From an uncultured Alphaproteobacteria bacterium (GTDB lineage: Bacteria > Pseudomonadota > Alphaproteobacteria > Rhodobacterales > Rhodobacteraceae): 64,000 nt of DNA. The translations under genes and the position numbers were made by a program. Below, piece after piece: positions 14,242-47,159 of this stretch. The notes below the pieces were generated by a model. That model was not told the origin of the DNA. It made no database searches and saw only the letters and a list, made by a program, of their open reading frames with translations. Every line of letters begins with the position of its first letter. Position 1 is the first letter of the stretch. The stretch lies in NCBI GenBank assembly GCA_902533625.1, contig CACAMI010000001.1, positions 124,001-188,000 of the forward strand. Direction: 5' to 3'.

Positions 14242-14318
<77 letters not shown>

Positions 14319-16135: not shown

Positions 16136-17347
16136 TTAAAATTCTCTCCAATTGATCTGAGAATGGTTACTTTTCTTAGATTTGTTTTCCTCAAGATTTA
16201 TTTCATCTTTTGTAAAGTTGGCAAATGACATTCGGTAGTCATGCACGGTCCTCAAAGACACATTCAATTGGTTTGCTATAAAATGATCAGGAAGCCCCTT
16301 TTTGATAGCTTTGTAAGCGTAAAGATTTCTAAAGCTAGAAACATTACGCTTAAGTCCATTTTTAAAAATATTTATTTTTGCAAAGCCCAATAGGGAAATA
16401 AGGCTTCGGCTGGTATTTAAGGGTGCCCTGTTTATTCTTACGTTGTACAGAATTTTTTCATTATCTGGTGGCTGACCTCCAAGTTCTTCAGTACGGAGAT
16501 TTCGTAGATTTTTTATATAGGTTTTTGCCTCACTATCAAACTCCACTACCCTATAGCCTACTCGGGATTCAATATTGCAACACAAAATTTCGTCCCTAAG
16601 GAAAAAATCTTCGTAGCTTAATTGGCCTAACTCTACAGATTTTAAGCCTGAAAATGCACTTAAACCAATTAGATTAGAAAATATATATCTGTCTCGCCAC
16701 CCATGCCTGCCTTCCCGGATCCACGATAAGATAACATCTTGCATTCTATTGTGCTCATCGGTGGAAAAAAAAGGAAGTGTGGGCAGATCTCTTCCTTTGT
16801 TCTCAAATCTAAAGTCAGGAAGCATTTTAATAAAGCCCTTTTTATAGGCGTACCTGAAAACCTTTCTTAGGTATGAGAGTTCGCGTTTAATTGTGGCATC
16901 AGAGGGAATTAGCCTGACATAATTTAACCTTCTCCAAATAACAAAATCATTCACCTCTTTTGCGGTGATTTTTGACATATTGTATCTTCCAAAAAAATCC
17001 AAGGCGTAGCGCTTTAAGGCGTAAATGCTGCGGTTGGCTCCCTCACGAGATTCGTTGATGCTAGTTTTAAGAAATAAATGAAACACCTCAGAAAACTTTT
17101 TTGTATATAAGCTACTTTCGCCAATAGAACTGCCCCTTAGTATAGAATGATATTTCCTGGCAATTCCCTCTGCTTCCCTGAAGTCACTACTTCCCGTCGA
17201 CACCCTTTTGCATCCATTTAAGCCTGATATCCTAAGTCGAGCATGATAATTTTTTCGGTTAGAATCTCCTCTTGTAAATAGAACTATTAACCCATCCCCA
17301 TCCAAGTCATAGATTCTATTTCCAAAATTACTGACTCTAGTTTTCAT
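16136..17347 (-). CDS. Tyrosine-recombinase-like protein with substituted active site
   Basis: A 403-residue protein with the layout of phage-type integrases: an arm-binding-like N-terminus (about 1-75), a helical core-binding domain (about 85-185, KRYALDFFGRYNMSKITAKEVNDFV) and a catalytic-domain fold after 190. The nucleophile position is kept (Y371 in TVHDYRMSF), as is the second arginine (R340 in SSFRNLYAY). However, the first catalytic arginine is lysine (K236 in FSGLKSVEL), the HxxR histidine is serine (S337), and the GH position reads NV. It may therefore bind DNA without normal recombination. Its upstream region carries the 24-bp tandem repeats, and a serine-recombinase-like gene lies just beyond them on the same strand. 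Confidence 0.8.
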   Translation of the reverse strand: MKTRVSNFGNRIYDLDGDGLIVLFTRGDSNRKNYHARLRISGLNGCKRVSTGSSDFREAEGIARKYHSILRGSSIGESSLYTKKFSEVFHLFLKTSINESREGANRSIYALKRYALDFFGRYNMSKITAKEVNDFVIWRRLNYVRLIPSDATIKRELSYLRKVFRYAYKKGFIKMLPDFRFENKGRDLPTLPFFSTDEHNRMQDVILSWIREGRHGWRDRYIFSNLIGLSAFSGLKSVELGQLSYEDFFLRDEILCCNIESRVGYRVVEFDSEAKTYIKNLRNLRTEELGGQPPDNEKILYNVRINRAPLNTSRSLISLLGFAKINIFKNGLKRNVSSFRNLYAYKAIKKGLPDHFIANQLNVSLRTVHDYRMSFANFTKDEINLEENKSKKSNHSQINWREF

Positions 17348-38105: not shown

Positions 38106-39959
38106 CTAAAGGCTGGATTGCATATAATCAGACACCCTAGAGCAGTAATCTCCTATATCCTCTGGAAGTTGACCCTCCATTAATCTAGCTTGATCGTATA
38201 AAGTGAGAGCAATCTGCTTGGTCTCATTATCTTTTTTACCAATCAAAGAAGTTAATTTCTTAATTAATTTATGATCTGGGTTGAGTTCCAATACCCTAGG
38301 CATACCTTTGAAATCCTTATTTTGTAGCATCATCATTCTTTCCATATGAACATCCATTCCACTATCAGAAGCTACCAGACAGCATGTGCTATCTACCAGT
38401 TTATTGGAAATTCTCACGTCTGCAACTTTTTCACCCAGCACTTCTTTAACCTTTGCTATAAGTTTTTCAAATTTCTTATCATCTTTCTTATCACTCTTAT
38501 CTTTAGTTTCATCAAATTTATCTAAATTAACTTCCCCATGAGTAATTGACATAAATTTCTTATCCTTGAATTCATTTACGACAGACAGCCAGAAAGTGTC
38601 GATAGGATCTGTTAAAATTAGAACATCTAGTTTTTTCTTTCTGAAAGCCTCCAAGTGAGGACTATTTTCTGCCTGTTCAATATTCTCAGAAGCTAAATAG
38701 TATATAGCGTCCTGTTTCTTATGCATTTTATCTAAGTATTCTGACAAAAATATAGAACTTTGATTATTTACGGATTTGAATTTGGATAACTCCAGTATAT
38801 CAATCTTACTATCTGCATCTTCATAAATACCTTCTTTAATAACAGATCCAAAATTTTCCCAAAATTTCTCAAATTTCTCTGGATCTTTCCCCTTTAATTT
38901 TCCCAACTCAGTCAAGATGCGTTTTTTTAATGTTTTGGATATTTTTCTGAGAGTGGGGCTGTTTTGTAATAGTTCTCGGCTCACATTTAGATTAATATCT
39001 GAAGTATCTAAAATTCCTGATACAAACCTTAGCCATCTAGGCAAAACAGTTTCTAAGGTGTCAGTGATAAAAACGCGATTGGAATAGAGTTTTACTTTAG
39101 GAGCTCTTTCCACATGAAAAAGATCAAAAGGCTTATTTTCTGGAATATAAACTAAGCTTGTATAACTAATAACTCCTTCAGCTTTATTATGAATAGTTAG
39201 CATAGGATCGCCAAAGCCACCACCTGTTTGGCGAAAAAATTCAGCATGCTGTTCTTTAGTAATGTCACTCTTTGCTTTAGTCCAAATTGCGGAAGCATCA
39301 TTTAATGTTTCCAAATCTTCACTTTTTGTGTCAATCCACTTAATAGGGTATTGCACGTGATCTGAATATTTCTTTATTATTTCCTGAATTTTTTCTTTCT
39401 TTAAATATTCTTTACCAACTTTGTTAAGAAATAGTTTAATCTCAGTACCAGATTTGCTTTTGTCAAATTTTTCAATTTCGTAACCGGTTAATCCGTCAGA
39501 CATCCATTTGTTAGCTTTTTCTTCTCCAATCTTTCTGGTTAAAACTTCTACTCTATCAGCAACCATAAAAGCCGAATAAAAGCCAACTCCGAACTGACCT
39601 ATTAGATTAATGGATTTGGTCTTATCGTCAGTTTTTTGGGCTTCAAGTTTTTCTAGGAACTCTGAGGTTCCCGATTTTGCTATTGTACCGAGGGCACCGT
39701 CTAATTCTTCGACTGACATGCCTATCCCTGTGTCGGATATAACCATTGAGCCTTCAGATTTATCTGTAGAAATTTTAATTTGATGCTCCTTGGCATCAGT
39801 TTTTTCTACTGCTCCAGATGTCTCCATAAAACGTCTTTTATCTATAGCATCCGAGCTATTTGATATAAGCTCTCGCAAAAATATATCTTTGTCAGAATAA
39901 AGAGAGTTTATGACAATATTTAATACACGACCTGTATCTGCCTCGAACTGTTTCTTCAT
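38106..39959 (-). CDS. htpG: Molecular chaperone HtpG (Hsp90)
   Basis: Bacterial Hsp90 of 617 residues. The GHKL ATPase domain starts FEADTGRVLNIVINSLYSDKDIFLRELISNSSDAIDKRR, with ISDTGIGMS and GQFGVGFYSAFMVADRV as ATP-lid and binding elements. The middle domain has LYSNRVFITD and NVSRELLQNSPTLRKISK, and the C-terminal dimerisation domain follows SDSGMDVHMERMM. Upstream is a sigma-32-like promoter (39991-40020), consistent with heat induction. Confidence 0.98.
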   Translation of the reverse strand: MKKQFEADTGRVLNIVINSLYSDKDIFLRELISNSSDAIDKRRFMETSGAVEKTDAKEHQIKISTDKSEGSMVISDTGIGMSVEELDGALGTIAKSGTSEFLEKLEAQKTDDKTKSINLIGQFGVGFYSAFMVADRVEVLTRKIGEEKANKWMSDGLTGYEIEKFDKSKSGTEIKLFLNKVGKEYLKKEKIQEIIKKYSDHVQYPIKWIDTKSEDLETLNDASAIWTKAKSDITKEQHAEFFRQTGGGFGDPMLTIHNKAEGVISYTSLVYIPENKPFDLFHVERAPKVKLYSNRVFITDTLETVLPRWLRFVSGILDTSDINLNVSRELLQNSPTLRKISKTLKKRILTELGKLKGKDPEKFEKFWENFGSVIKEGIYEDADSKIDILELSKFKSVNNQSSIFLSEYLDKMHKKQDAIYYLASENIEQAENSPHLEAFRKKKLDVLILTDPIDTFWLSVVNEFKDKKFMSITHGEVNLDKFDETKDKSDKKDDKKFEKLIAKVKEVLGEKVADVRISNKLVDSTCCLVASDSGMDVHMERMMMLQNKDFKGMPRVLELNPDHKLIKKLTSLIGKKDNETKQIALTLYDQARLMEGQLPEDIGDYCSRVSDYMQSSL

Positions 39960-39990: not shown

Positions 39991-40020
39991 ATAGATGTGG
40001 CGTTTTCTATTTTTTTCAAG
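39991..40020 (-). promoter_or_regulatory. Sigma-32-like promoter of htpG
   Basis: On the minus strand CTTGAA (40015-40020) and CATCTAT (39991-39997) are separated by 17 bases, close to the alphaproteobacterial RpoH pattern. The same CTTGAA box occurs in front of the HSP20 gene. It lies about 30-60 bases upstream of the htpG ATG. Confidence 0.55.
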
Positions 40021-41100: not shown

Positions 41101-41544
41101 TTAGGAAGCCTTCTTATTTATTGTTTTTTGAACTAAATTAATGGGTATTTTTTTTGGAATTTCTGCTTCTGGTATTTCCCTATGTAAGGATACATTTAGC
41201 AAACCATCTAGTAATGTTGCATTAGTGACTTTAACATTATCAGCTATCCTAAATTTTTTATTGAATGCTCTTGTAGCTATGCCACGGTGAAGAAAATTTC
41301 CACCCTCATTCTTTTCTTTTATATTTCCTTCAATCGTTAATACACCATTGAGAAGTTCTATATGAATATCTTTTTCTGAAAATCCTGAAACAGCCATAGT
41401 TATAAGGTAATTTTCATCACCAATTTTTTCAATATTGTAAGCTGGATAGGTTGAATCTTTTATTGTTGCTGTATTTTCAAGTTCATTGAACAGCTGGTCA
41501 AAACCAACAAAAGATCTCATGAAAGGTGTTGTAATAAAAGTCAT
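41101..41544 (-). CDS. Small heat-shock protein, HSP20/IbpA family
   Basis: ATP-independent holdase chaperone of 147 residues. The N-terminus MRSFVGFDQLFNEL is IbpA-like; the alpha-crystallin domain runs YPAYNIEKIGDENYLITMAVSGFSEKDIHIELLNGVLTIEG through GLLNVSLHREIPE, and the tail carries IPKKIPINL as an IxI-type motif. An AGGAG site lies seven bases before the ATG. The leader folds like a ROSE thermometer and a sigma-32-like promoter lies further upstream, so control at both transcription and translation is likely. Confidence 0.96.
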   Translation of the reverse strand: MTFITTPFMRSFVGFDQLFNELENTATIKDSTYPAYNIEKIGDENYLITMAVSGFSEKDIHIELLNGVLTIEGNIKEKNEGGNFLHRGIATRAFNKKFRIADNVKVTNATLLDGLLNVSLHREIPEAEIPKKIPINLVQKTINKKAS

Positions 41545-41634
41545 AAATAAGCTCCTTTATTAAGCAAGTTTAAAAAAGTTTGGCACCGATACGGCTGCCA
41601 GAGGTTTAAATTGTGGGCCCATTTTGGCACCTCA
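41545..41634 (-). promoter_or_regulatory. ROSE-like RNA thermometer in the HSP20 leader
   Basis: The 3' hairpin (41552-41568, minus strand CTTGCTT-AATA-AAGGAG) pairs the ribosome binding site with a UUGCU element, leaving one bulged G; this is the signature of ROSE elements, which melt on heating and release the site. Upstream the leader forms a second strong hairpin (41581-41600, TGGCA(G)CCG with CGGTGCCA) and a GAGGT/ACCTC long-range stem around the TGGGCCCA palindrome. Overall length of about 90 bases and gene context (small HSP) fit ROSE elements. Confidence 0.72.
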
Positions 41635-41641
41635 CAATAAT

Positions 41642-41670
41642 TAAATGGCAATTATTTCGATTTTTTCAAG
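41642..41670 (-). promoter_or_regulatory. Sigma-32-like promoter of HSP20
   Basis: Reading on the minus strand, CTTGAA (41665-41670) and CCATTTA (41642-41648) are spaced 16 bases apart, resembling RpoH promoters. Transcription would start near 41634, giving the ROSE-like leader its full set of hairpins. It lies just after the stop of the small coiled-coil gene. Confidence 0.6.
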
Positions 41671-42125: not shown

Positions 42126-43898
42126 CTATCTGGTAAGTTCATTAAATGCTCCATTTAAGAGTTTTTCGAACTTTTTCCATTCTTCTGAACTCCCCTTGTA
42201 CACTTTTTTTCTTACTTGTTGAGTTGAAGCTGTCATTACGGATCTTTTATTTTTCTCTGGACTAAGACATGCATCTTCCCAAGGCAGACCGGTATATTCA
42301 ATTAATTTTCTTGTTTCTTCTTCCTGGTTATTAGTTAATTCTTCATAATCCAATTGGTATATGAAATTCCCATATTGCTCTTTCCAAAAATTCATTAGAT
42401 CGTTATATAACCTATGGTACTCAACCAAGTCCTTAAGATCAAAAGTAAAACCAAGTCCTCTTGATACAAAATTCAACTTAAAATTTGACCAACATACTGC
42501 CTTAGGATCTCTATTAACATGTATTATTTTGGCTTCCGGAAATGCGGTTTTAATTAGACCAATGTGCCTGAAGTTACTGGGCATTTTATCAGTAACAAAA
42601 GGTTTGCCATCGGAAAGTTTTTTGAGTTCATCTAAATATTGGACTCTAAATCTTTTTAAGGATTCCTCGTTCAATTTAATATTGCCCCTAATTAAAGGTA
42701 GACCATATTGACTGCAAAACTCAAGTTCGCCAGCACCTGAAACTTTAGAATGACATGATATAATTTGTTCCACGAGAGTTGTTCCCGATCTTGGCATTCC
42801 TAAAATAAAAATGGGAACAGTTGTGAGTTCTTTACCTGTAATATTTATTTGGAATTCATTTATTAGTTCAAAACTAGTTTTTATTTGAGAAAATAGAAGC
42901 TGATCCTCGGATATATTATAGTTGAGCAACTTTTTGCGTAATGCATTGCCTTCCTTTAGAAAAGAAAAGGCCTTTTTATTATCTCCAATATCCCCATATG
43001 CTTTTCCTAAAGCGAAAGCTAATACGGATACTTCTTTTTCTTTCAGTATGCCAGTGGAATATATTTTTTCCATCTGGTCAAATTGTATATCATTTTTTTC
43101 GTATTTTTTAATTTTACTAATATTTGCATATGCTTCCGCAAATTTTGGATTTATTTCAATGGCCTTTTCGTAATTAATAACAGCTTTTTTTAAATCACCT
43201 TGATCTCTAAATACAATACCTAAATTATTATATGCTTCAGCGTAATTTATGTTTAGTAATATCGCTTCTTTATAAGACCCAATTGCCTTAACTAAATCAC
43301 CTTGATCTCTAAAGGTTAAACCAAGATTATTTTTTATCTCAGCATAATCAGGATATAATTTCTCTGCTTTTTCCAAAACTCCAAGGGATTCATCAAACAT
43401 TTGCTGTTGTCTAAATACATCTCCTAAGTTAACGAGAGTATCGCGATGAATAGGGTTAATATCTAGCACTTTCAAATAATTTTTTATGGCTAAAACATAA
43501 TTTTCTCTTTCTTGGAATATAACACCAAGGTTATATGTGGCTTCATAAAGTTCAGGTTTAATTTCTAGAGCTTTTTCGTATGAAATAATTGCCTTTTCAT
43601 TCTGGCCTTCAGTTTTAAGTAGGTTTCCCAAGTTATTATGAGCTTCAGCATAATCAGGTCGAAGTTCTATAGTTTTTTCATAACATTGCATGGCATCCTG
43701 AATTTTATTCATTTGAGTATTGATAGCGCCTAAAATATTCCAAAGTTTAAATGATTTTGGATAATCCGAGAGTAATTTATTTACTTCTTCAAAAACATGA
43801 TCAAACCTTTCATTAGAAAAATTTGTAATCAAATTCTCTAAGATAGGCTGTTTTGGATTTTCATTAACACTAGAATGGTTTGTGATCTGATGTTTCAT
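42126..43898 (-). CDS. TPR-repeat sulfotransferase
   Basis: A 590-residue fusion of about seven TPR repeats (residues 45-330, e.g. PDYAEAHNNLGNLLKTEGQNEKAIISYEKALEI) with a C-terminal PAPS-dependent sulfotransferase. The 5'-phosphosulfate loop is IFILGMPRSGTTLVEQIIS and the 3'-phosphate motif IIHVNRDPKAVCWSNF. The C-terminus KKVYKGSSEEWKKFEKLL is the shared family end. The TPR part presumably binds a protein or peptide substrate, perhaps for tyrosine or glycan sulfation; that is inference. The ATG at 43898 has GAGA upstream; a TTG ten codons earlier is possible. A decayed copy of its N-terminus lies just upstream. Confidence 0.88.
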   Translation of the reverse strand: MKHQITNHSSVNENPKQPILENLITNFSNERFDHVFEEVNKLLSDYPKSFKLWNILGAINTQMNKIQDAMQCYEKTIELRPDYAEAHNNLGNLLKTEGQNEKAIISYEKALEIKPELYEATYNLGVIFQERENYVLAIKNYLKVLDINPIHRDTLVNLGDVFRQQQMFDESLGVLEKAEKLYPDYAEIKNNLGLTFRDQGDLVKAIGSYKEAILLNINYAEAYNNLGIVFRDQGDLKKAVINYEKAIEINPKFAEAYANISKIKKYEKNDIQFDQMEKIYSTGILKEKEVSVLAFALGKAYGDIGDNKKAFSFLKEGNALRKKLLNYNISEDQLLFSQIKTSFELINEFQINITGKELTTVPIFILGMPRSGTTLVEQIISCHSKVSGAGELEFCSQYGLPLIRGNIKLNEESLKRFRVQYLDELKKLSDGKPFVTDKMPSNFRHIGLIKTAFPEAKIIHVNRDPKAVCWSNFKLNFVSRGLGFTFDLKDLVEYHRLYNDLMNFWKEQYGNFIYQLDYEELTNNQEEETRKLIEYTGLPWEDACLSPEKNKRSVMTASTQQVRKKVYKGSSEEWKKFEKLLNGAFNELTR

Positions 43899-43968
43899 AT
43901 TATCTCGCAAAATTTGGTTCAATGACAATTGCTTCGCAGCAGTAGGTCAACATCTTTTTGTTTTTTCC

Positions 43969-45032: not shown

Positions 45033-47159
45033 CTATTTATAATCTTTATAATTTTCAAGCCTATCAAACTTACCTTCTAAAAATGGTTTATATTTTTTCC
45101 AGTCGTCAGAACTTCCTCTGTAAACCTTACTACGTACTTGCGTCTTGGACGCTGTGCGAACACTACGTTTGTTTCTTTCAGGGTATAGGCACCTGTCCTC
45201 CCAATTTAGCCCAAGGTAGTTTATTAGGTCTCTTGTTGCAGAGTTTTGATTATGAGTAAAAAATTCATAATCAAGATGGTAAATACGTTCTTTGTAATAT
45301 TGATTCCAAAACATCATAAGATCTTCGTAGAGGAGATGGTAATGAATTATATCATCAAGGTTAAAAGAGTAATTTATTCCATTTGGGAAATATTCTTTAA
45401 AATTAGACCAGCACGTAGCAGCAGGCTGCCTTCTCGTGTGAACAATTTTTGCTTCGGGAAACGCACTACATATCAGCGCAATATAAAGGAAATTTTGTGG
45501 CATTTTATCTGTAACATATGAGACCCCTTCAGAAATCTTAGAAATTTTTTTCAAATAAATGTCCCTGAACTTCTTGATTGCCTTTTCGCTACATTTTTTG
45601 TCTCCAATCGAAAGTGAAGCGCCATGAAAATTTATATCCCATAGTTCACCCGCACCCATAACTTGAGTATGGGAAGATATAATTTGCTCAATTAGTGAAG
45701 TTCCTGATCGTGGCATACCGAGGATAAATATTGGTGTAGGGCAAGAAGTTTTTTTTGACAGTTTTAAGGCGTTTTCTTGAATATGCCTCGCTGACTGTTT
45801 AATGCGTGAAAACAATTTTTGGTCTTGGCTAATTTCGTAATTTAATAACCTCTTTTGATATGCATTTCCCTCCTTTAGAAAATCAAAGGATTTCTTTATT
45901 TGACCGAGATCTTTAAAAACTTTCGCCAATGCAAAACAGATTTGGATATGCTCTTTTTCATTTAAGTTCTTGTCATACAGACTTTGCATTCGAGGTATGT
46001 CTTGGTCTTTGGGTAAATAATTTTTTAAAATGGACATTAATCTGTAAGCCTTAGCACAATCAGGCTTTTCTTTAATCATTTCTTTTAGATACTTTAAAGC
46101 TTCTTCATTTTTACCTAAATTCTGGAAACAGATTGATATGTTCATAAGATTATCTGTTCCATCCACTTTCAATGTTCTAGCAGTTTTAAAAAATTCTAAG
46201 GCCTCTTTAGGTTTGTCAAGTTTCCGAAGTATTAGCCCCATTGTTTCATAGGCCTCATATCTTTTTTGATCAAGCTTCATAGCATCCTTTAGAATAACTA
46301 GGGCTTTGGAGCTCTCCAAACTTTGATGACTTGCTTTAGCAAGATTTATCAAAGCTTTATAATATTTTGAATTTAAGCTTAACGCCTTTTCAAAATTGAA
46401 AATTGCCAATTTTAGTTCACCTAGCGCTACCAAAGCAGTACCCAAGTTATTGTATGCCTCAGCATAGTTTGGGTTGATCTCGATAGCTTTCTTATAATAT
46501 TTTTCTGCTTCTCTTACATTTCCAAGGCGTTGGACAGTATAACCTAAATTATTTAGTGCTTCACTGTAGTTAGGGTTAATCTCAACAGCTTTTCTATAAT
46601 ATTTTTCTGCGTCTGAGATCTTAGATTGCTGCATTAATGCATTTGCTAAATTATTATGTGCTTGAGGAAAAAGAGGATTAATACTTAATGCCGAAGTAAA
46701 GTGTTCAACAGCTTTTTTGAGTTTGCCTTGAGCGTTTAGTATATTCCCTAGATTATTATGACCTTCGGCAGAGTCTTTTCTTAGAGCTATTGTATTTCTA
46801 AAAGCATTTTCGCTAAGTGCCAGATTCCCTGTTTGTGCTGCAAGAATTCCCAAAAAGTTTTGAATCTTATAAGATGTTTGAAACTTTTGGCCTAAATCTT
46901 GTGCTTTATTCAAAGCATTTTTTATATCCCCCTTTCTATAAAGTTCAGAAAGTTCATTCATTGATCGGTCAAGAAGGCCCTGATCTAATTCTAGATCTGG
47001 TTTTGATTTGCCTATTTTTATTAATGCAAGCCTAGCTCTATTATTCTTTGGGAACTGCTTAAGTATGTTTCTATAAATATTTTCAGCATCAAGTATATTG
47101 CCCTTTCTTAATAATGAGGAAGCTTTTAGAAAATCTCGTTCAATTGATAGCTTTGTCAT
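45033..47159 (-). CDS. TPR-repeat sulfotransferase (longer paralogue)
   Basis: A 708-residue paralogue of the gene at 42.1-43.9 kb. An N-terminal domain (residues 1-85) is followed by about nine or ten TPRs (up to about 440; AEAYNNLGTALVALGELKLAIFNFEKAL). The sulfotransferase domain has PIFILGMPRSGTSLIEQIISSH (5'-phosphosulfate loop, about residue 485) and KIVHTRRQPAATCWSNF, a variant of the 3'-phosphate motif in which NRDP is RRQP. It ends SKVYRGSSDDWKKYKPFLEGKF. The two genes are homologous but clearly diverged, so they likely act on different substrates. A remnant of another copy's 3' end lies upstream at 47.4 kb. Confidence 0.88.
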   Translation of the reverse strand: MTKLSIERDFLKASSLLRKGNILDAENIYRNILKQFPKNNRARLALIKIGKSKPDLELDQGLLDRSMNELSELYRKGDIKNALNKAQDLGQKFQTSYKIQNFLGILAAQTGNLALSENAFRNTIALRKDSAEGHNNLGNILNAQGKLKKAVEHFTSALSINPLFPQAHNNLANALMQQSKISDAEKYYRKAVEINPNYSEALNNLGYTVQRLGNVREAEKYYKKAIEINPNYAEAYNNLGTALVALGELKLAIFNFEKALSLNSKYYKALINLAKASHQSLESSKALVILKDAMKLDQKRYEAYETMGLILRKLDKPKEALEFFKTARTLKVDGTDNLMNISICFQNLGKNEEALKYLKEMIKEKPDCAKAYRLMSILKNYLPKDQDIPRMQSLYDKNLNEKEHIQICFALAKVFKDLGQIKKSFDFLKEGNAYQKRLLNYEISQDQKLFSRIKQSARHIQENALKLSKKTSCPTPIFILGMPRSGTSLIEQIISSHTQVMGAGELWDINFHGASLSIGDKKCSEKAIKKFRDIYLKKISKISEGVSYVTDKMPQNFLYIALICSAFPEAKIVHTRRQPAATCWSNFKEYFPNGINYSFNLDDIIHYHLLYEDLMMFWNQYYKERIYHLDYEFFTHNQNSATRDLINYLGLNWEDRCLYPERNKRSVRTASKTQVRSKVYRGSSDDWKKYKPFLEGKFDRLENYKDYK

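Follow-up and report, generated by a model that had tools for sequence, protein, structure and literature searches.

The HSP20 gene studied here raises the question of what its leader does: is the RNA ahead of the start codon an RNA thermometer and, if so, of which kind? The gene lies on the minus strand of the window, by which we mean the whole 64-kb stretch (64,000 nucleotides) of DNA from an uncultured alphaproteobacterium that was analyzed, and it is the only HSP20 detected in a genome that is 74.65% complete. Our comparisons indicate that the leader is very probably a ROSE-class RNA thermometer. It most likely silences HSP20 until the cell warms, a temperature response that we infer. At the level of sequence comparison, the analysis establishes that the three-hairpin leader is conserved and carries covariation, that its ribosome site is able to pair with an arm bearing a bulged G, and that a promoter-like site lies in register with it.

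The HSP20 leader and its hairpins

On direct reading of the window, the minus-strand leader upstream of the HSP20 ATG is AAACTTGCTTAATAAAGGAGCTTATTTATG, with a GC content of 0.36. The preliminary description of this locus had placed CTTGCTT-AATA-AAGGAG, with one bulged G facing the ribosome site, in front of an HSP20 gene. Both the gene and the motif are present, and all six pairs around the single bulged G are standard, one of them being U.G (Table 1). A second hairpin of 8 bp, also reported there, was located with its bulged G. The long-range stem that completed that picture has to be redrawn: the pairing exists, but it is better seen as the local hairpin 1, which shares a GGUGCC..GGGCC form with relatives in the leader alignment.

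Table 1. Features of the HSP20 leader, its gene and the neighboring htpG gene in the window.
Feature	Position	Strand	Basis
Sigma-32-like promoter of HSP20, CTTGAAA-N14-GCCATTT (read 41670-41643); predicted transcript start ~41636	41643..41670	-	Exact pattern counts and leader comparison
Hairpin 1: AUUGUG/CACAAU, bulged A, GG/CC, U.G, bulged G41628, CC/GG, loop AAAAU	41610..41638	-	Sequence, minimum-energy fold, R1 alignment
Hairpin 2: UGGCA/UGCCA, bulged G41595, CCG/CGG, loop UAU, 5 + 3 pairs	41581..41600	-	Sequence, fold, ROSE_3 match, R1
Hairpin 3, ROSE core: CUU-(G41565)-CUU, loop AAUA, AAGGAG (CTTGCTT 41568-41562, AATA 41561-41558, AAGGAG 41557-41552)	41552..41568	-	Sequence, motif position, 6/6 pairs, R1, SAR116-type leaders
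Shine-Dalgarno AAGGAG, 7 nt upstream of ATG	41552..41557	-	Sequence
HSP20, alpha-crystallin type small heat-shock protein, 147 aa, regulated gene; start codon ATG 41544-41542	41101..41544	-	ORF list and Pfam HSP20, E 3.6e-17
Second sigma-32-like promoter, same form, before htpG; outside the thermometer	39993..40020	-	Exact pattern
htpG (Hsp90), neighboring heat-shock gene, same promoter type	38106..39959	-	ORF list and Pfam

Conservation of the ROSE motif among HSP20 leaders

Relatives were drawn from two sets. The first comprised 101 genomes, 87 of which had an HSP20 match, and supplied, apart from the window's own locus, 29 loci and another 40 leaders; the second was the best 80 of 594 HSP20 loci found in a named genome collection by an alignment-based search. 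In total, 149 leaders were extracted, the window's included, with one locus (L129) left out because the end of its contig was too near. Bartonella bacilliformis (L098) was among the HSP20 matches and was counted only.

The motif U(U/C)GCU starts between -30 and -16 in 142 of the 149 leaders, including that of the window, where TYGCT occupies this position at only one of 63 ORF starts, HSP20 itself. The complete six-pair stem with its bulged G was found in 137 of the 142 motif-bearing leaders, versus 3.9% when the 3' part was shuffled. After removal of near-copies, 124 of 136 leaders retained the full stem, five fell short of it and seven had no motif. The pairs of this stem (stem 3) vary among the leaders, position 1 being mostly A-U, G-U, G-C or C-G, position 3 C-G, U-G or U-A, and position 6 mostly C-G, U-G or U-A, with A-U once. 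A scan of the genome for TTGCT..RAGGAG returned 28 sites versus 5 in a reversed control, and six of the 28 were followed, 4-12 nt past AGGAG, by a start codon opening an ORF of at least 60 aa. HSP20 alone combined an ATG with a complete stem, and no second clear ROSE of the UUGCU form was found in the 74.65%-complete genome.

A covariance model trained on the lineage

The alignment A2, from which the covariance model R1 was built, consists of 47 leaders from the genome's own family with the window left out. The three-hairpin structure was drawn on it by hand, with stem 3 taken from the motif in the literature, and its rows are related to one another. In A2, 85.7% of cells are paired versus 78.0% after shuffling, and 107 cells carry two-sided changes versus 42.8; at least one such change is found in 17 of the 23 pairs, and none of 500 shuffles reached the real value on any of five measures. 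Sliding the structure along A2 lowered pairing to 61% or less, a control that favors the drawn structure, as this was drawn on the same alignment. The slide by +1 equaled the drawn structure in pairs with two-sided changes (17 each) and exceeded it in further pair types (49 vs 47), but fell far below it in cells paired (60.9 vs 85.7%) and covariation score (0.177 vs 0.310). Most of the covariation belongs to hairpins 1 and 2; in stem 3, two pairs out of six show two-sided changes. RNAalifold, applied to A2 alone, likewise proposed hairpins 1 and 2 and not hairpin 3. At the bulged position, a G is found in 46 of the 47 rows in hairpin 1, in 43 in hairpin 2 and in all 47 in hairpin 3.

When run on the 64-kb window, R1 returned a single match at E<=10, directly at the HSP20 leader (41644-41542, minus strand, 28.1 bits, E 4e-5, E-values being rough), which spans model positions 1-102 of 102. 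Modeled without base pairs, the same alignment matched nowhere in the window at E<=10, so the window shares structure with these relatives more than it shares sequence. Among 91 sources, R1 matched directly upstream of HSP20 at E<0.01 in 70, a count that includes at least the window's own copy (L004) and a locus (L093) on the same contig as a training row (L009); 4 of the 83 matches listed at E<=1 lay elsewhere in their loci. A set of 32 sources gave a match in 30 (all but L102 and L153), with one of 31 matches elsewhere, in L006. An alignment of these 32 sources (A4) was fitted to R1, and its pair counts are left out of the evidence. The early reading of the leader as a ROSE-like thermometer is supported by homology, covariation and position.

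The closest counterparts of the window's gene lie outside its own family. In the named collection, the best protein match to HSP20 is that of a SAR116 single-cell genome (57%), and we use the term SAR116-type for the family of that genome, with five genomes, four of which had an HSP20 match. R1 matches the leaders of all three close SAR116-type orthologues (58-59%, one being that of the single-cell genome) at 36.4, 25.6 and 23.3 bits. One of these matches, in L198, stops ~27 nt short of the ATG and misses stem 3, which is present there by reading. Four distant SAR116-type copies (40-44%, L200-L203) gave no R1 match at E<=5. Where the window has CUU(G)CUU..AAGGAG in stem 3, the SAR116-type leaders have CUC or CUU(G)CUA..UAGGAG; the innermost pair has changed from U-A in the window to A-U in all three, a two-sided change that keeps the pairing.

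Comparison with the curated ROSE models

No Rfam ROSE match was obtained in the window at the gathering score. With a relaxed threshold over 351 bases, ROSE_3 (RF02523) was top-listed of six matches, on the minus strand at 41603-41539 (20.0 bits, E 0.065), and the first hairpin of this match is hairpin 2 of the leader. Checking the leader with these models, as had been proposed, therefore gave a divided answer: ROSE_3 matches the right place on the right strand, but its score is below the gathering score of 43 bits. The leader is a diverged member of the known ROSE class and is not filed under that accession.

A score below the cut-off says little here because the curated models are insensitive at these loci. 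Of 60 alphaproteobacterial HSP20 loci scanned, namely L004-L023 (which include the window's own copy), L142-L161 and 20 named loci, a single one, L084 from Microvirga, passed the cut-off of any of the ROSE models RF00435, RF01832 and RF02523. Fourteen ROSE-type matches were listed over the 60 loci, the passing one included, with E up to 10 allowed in the first 20 loci and up to 1 in the remaining 40. All 14 were located at the start of HSP20; no match was listed for the window's own copy, which belongs to the first 20 loci. As an observation on the models themselves, a pass rate of 1/60 sits beside a motif found in 142/149 leaders, and retraining with Rhodobacterales leaders may help.

A sigma-32-like promoter and neighboring heat-shock genes

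Promoters for sigma-32 (RpoH) follow the consensus CTTGAAA - 13 to 15 - CCCATNT. A promoter had been described upstream of the leader as CTTGAA-16-CCATTTA. It is present and, rewritten in the form given in Table 1, agrees with the consensus at 12 of 13 positions with a spacer of 14. It lies in register with the leader. A transcript from the predicted start would keep hairpins 2 and 3 entire and lose no more than the end pairs of hairpin 1.

Exact CTTGAAA-N16-CATNT occurs twice in the window, before HSP20 and before htpG, versus 0.14 expected. With one mismatch allowed the count is still 2, which is below the 4.27 expected by chance, and for this reason only the exact form is informative. At least 10 of the 13 consensus positions are found in 130 of the 149 HSP20 leaders versus 2.8% of shuffles; one SAR116 leader, L062, reaches only 9. 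Over the whole genome, a slightly looser exact pattern gave 10 sites versus 6 in the reversed control. Three of the 10 precede HSP20, htpG and a lon-like ORF (L188; named by eye), and four lie inside long open frames. A putative small heat-shock regulon consisting of these three genes can be read from the pattern.

Predicted folding and alternative explanations

Hairpins 1 and 2 are part of the predicted minimum-energy fold at all nine temperatures from 4 to 50 C. Hairpin 3 was not favored in the temperature-dependent fold that had been suggested as a check: ViennaRNA gave it a probability of 0.00-0.03 in the whole leader at 15-45 C, compared with a median of 0.94 at 15 C over the 137 leaders whose stem is complete. 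In 20 of these 137, among them the window's own leader, L010 and L062, this probability is <0.1. In the predicted fold the ribosome site is mostly paired at 4-15 C, by alternative weak pairings and not by the ROSE stem. Accessibility of positions -14 to -7 was 0.13 at 4 C, 0.22 at 15 C and 0.36 at 45 C. These values are below the median window ORF at all five temperatures (rank 4/60 at 4 C), and the gain from 15 to 45 C ranks 16/60 among the window ORFs. A crude linear estimate, highly sensitive to the U.G wobble, put the melting point of the isolated stem 3 at 28 C, the 14th lowest among the 137 leaders, whose median was 50 C; for the three SAR116-type leaders it gave 29.9 C twice and 54.7 C once. 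Across leaders, the rank correlation of this estimate with GC was 0.26.

Both the low melting estimate and the near-zero probability of stem 3 in full-leader folds speak for a decayed ROSE, that is, a descendant of a working thermometer whose hairpin 3 has become too weak in an AU-rich genome, leaving HSP20 under the sigma-32-like promoter alone. We consider such decay improbable, as neither the bulged G nor any of the six pairs has been lost and the nearest relatives retain stem 3 by way of a two-sided change. That as many as 20 leaders with a complete stem share the low probability, L010 as well as the window, suggests moreover that stems of this kind may escape the energy rules. PMC11342760 describes two solved ROSE-type structures that are unlike each other, one of them containing a G-G pair along with further unusual contacts, so that energy rules may treat stem 3 poorly. 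As they stand, the predicted folds neither confirm nor refute the ROSE reading of this leader.

A transcription attenuator, in which hairpin 2 followed by TTTTTT (41577-41572) would end part of the transcripts, is very improbable. The hairpin is indeed a GC-rich one of 8 bp with six T beginning three bases downstream; however, a scan for terminators and sigma-70 promoters found no terminator-like site (and two promoter-like sites versus 1.4 expected), and a run of five T in the last 45 bases occurs in only 8 of the 149 leaders, the window's included, whereas the stem at the ribosome site is nearly universal. That an AT-rich leader without a regulatory role folds in this way by accident is scarcely credible, for although TYGCT alone arises in 3.4% of shuffles of the leader's end, a model trained without the window matched it at the E-value given above and found nothing without structure, and promoter and gene type agree with those of relatives.

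Origin of the gene and its leader

The HSP20 protein and the contig that carries it point to different relatives. By GyrB, which this contig also encodes, the nearest family is f1, the genome's own, which includes Oceanomicrobium pacificus (Rhodobacterales), with 66-71% identity in four genomes versus 62-64% in four genomes of other families. In a tree of 28 rows, used in place of a 109-row tree that was set aside over a warning of long-branch attraction, HSP20 groups with the SAR116-type proteins with a support of 100/100. A clade of the window's protein with eight f1 HSP20 proteins was rejected (p-AU 0.0017); one of window, SAR116-type and f1 proteins was rejected more weakly (p-AU 0.028), and long AT-rich branches may contribute. 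HtpG was found in 7 of 100 f1 genomes, those of the window and its congener included. Among nine other genomes, its best full-length match is that of the SAR116 genome (49%), and there is a 78% fragment in the congener. Because HSP20 groups with the SAR116-type and not with its own family, HtpG is rare in f1 and GyrB is f1-like, it is plausible that HSP20 and its leader were transferred together.

A more specific version of this history would have HSP20 and its thermometer transferred in one piece between the SAR116-type bacteria and an AT-rich, streamlined lineage affiliated with the Rhodobacterales, where hairpin 3 was tuned to a lower opening temperature. We think this unlikely, the more so as the third SAR116-type leader is estimated to melt at 54.7 C. 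If it were true, the melting point of stem 3 could record the thermal niche of uncultured bacteria. As a separate observation, HSP20 and HtpG are both closer to SAR116-type proteins than to those of their own family, on a contig with a family-like GyrB, which is a possible case of heat-shock gene transfer.

A model for the leader and its relation to known ROSE elements

If the leader is a ROSE thermometer, a heat-shock sigma factor would drive transcription of the mRNA from the base of hairpin 1 onward, and hairpins 1 and 2 would fold locally and remain folded. Hairpin 3 would be a weak structure in the cell, with CUU-(G)-CUU on AAGGAG and the bulged G beside the U.G wobble, and at growth temperature it would cover the ribosome site. 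Upon warming, hairpin 3 would melt first, ribosomes would bind and HSP20 would be made, as in ROSE-like elements that have been measured. By the crude melting estimate, the AU-rich stem 3 should open at a lower temperature than that of most relatives.

Both alpha- and gammaproteobacteria are known to carry ROSE-like elements ahead of small heat-shock genes (PMC3669281), which agrees with what the preliminary description had said of the alphaproteobacteria. The leader resembles ROSE1 of Bradyrhizobium hspA and the Rfam families RF00435, RF01832 and RF02523 in preceding a small heat-shock gene, in its three hairpins and in setting U(U/C)GCU with one bulged G against the Shine-Dalgarno sequence (PMC3669281 and PMC11342760, available portions). 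It differs from them in scoring below the ROSE_3 cut-off and in being AU-rich, and, by the estimate used here, 123 of the 136 leaders set against it have a stronger stem 3. In the short ROSE-like elements of Pseudomonas ibpA (PMC3669281), reporter induction from 25 to 42 C was 3.3- to 8.3-fold, and the ribosome-site hairpin melts while the first hairpin stays. These share with the window leader the U(U/C)GCU facing the ribosome site and transcription by sigma-32, of which a sigma-32-like promoter is what can be read here, but they have two hairpins rather than three (PMC3669281).

ROSE-like elements of the ibpA and hspD genes of Nautella sp. R11, a marine Roseobacter, have been reported by motif in PMC3230580; the likeness to the window, compared by motif description, is that of a ROSE-like motif before small heat-shock genes in a different lineage. 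ROSE-G also has a bulged G in the arm facing the Shine-Dalgarno sequence, but there, in the available part of PMC12857270, the motif is CUGCU with two facing bulged Gs before ABC transporter genes, unlike the UUGCU and single bulge of this leader. A search of the open-access literature returned one paper for ROSE elements in Rhodobacter and nothing on an RNA thermometer in SAR116. The window leader would extend a measured class of RNA thermometers to an AT-rich lineage that the curated models miss (1/60 loci, versus 70/91 sources for the lineage model). Heat-sensing set points could be compared across uncultured bacteria wherever relatives differ in how strong their ribosome-site stem is.

Other features of the window

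Two neighboring proteins on the minus strand (42126-43928 and 45033-47159) combine TPR repeats with a sulfotransferase, the first by Pfam and the second by eye. A tyrosine recombinase-like ORF, also recognized by eye, lies at 16136-17347 on the minus strand, ~2 kb from a tRNA gene (14242-14315), and may mark an inserted island.
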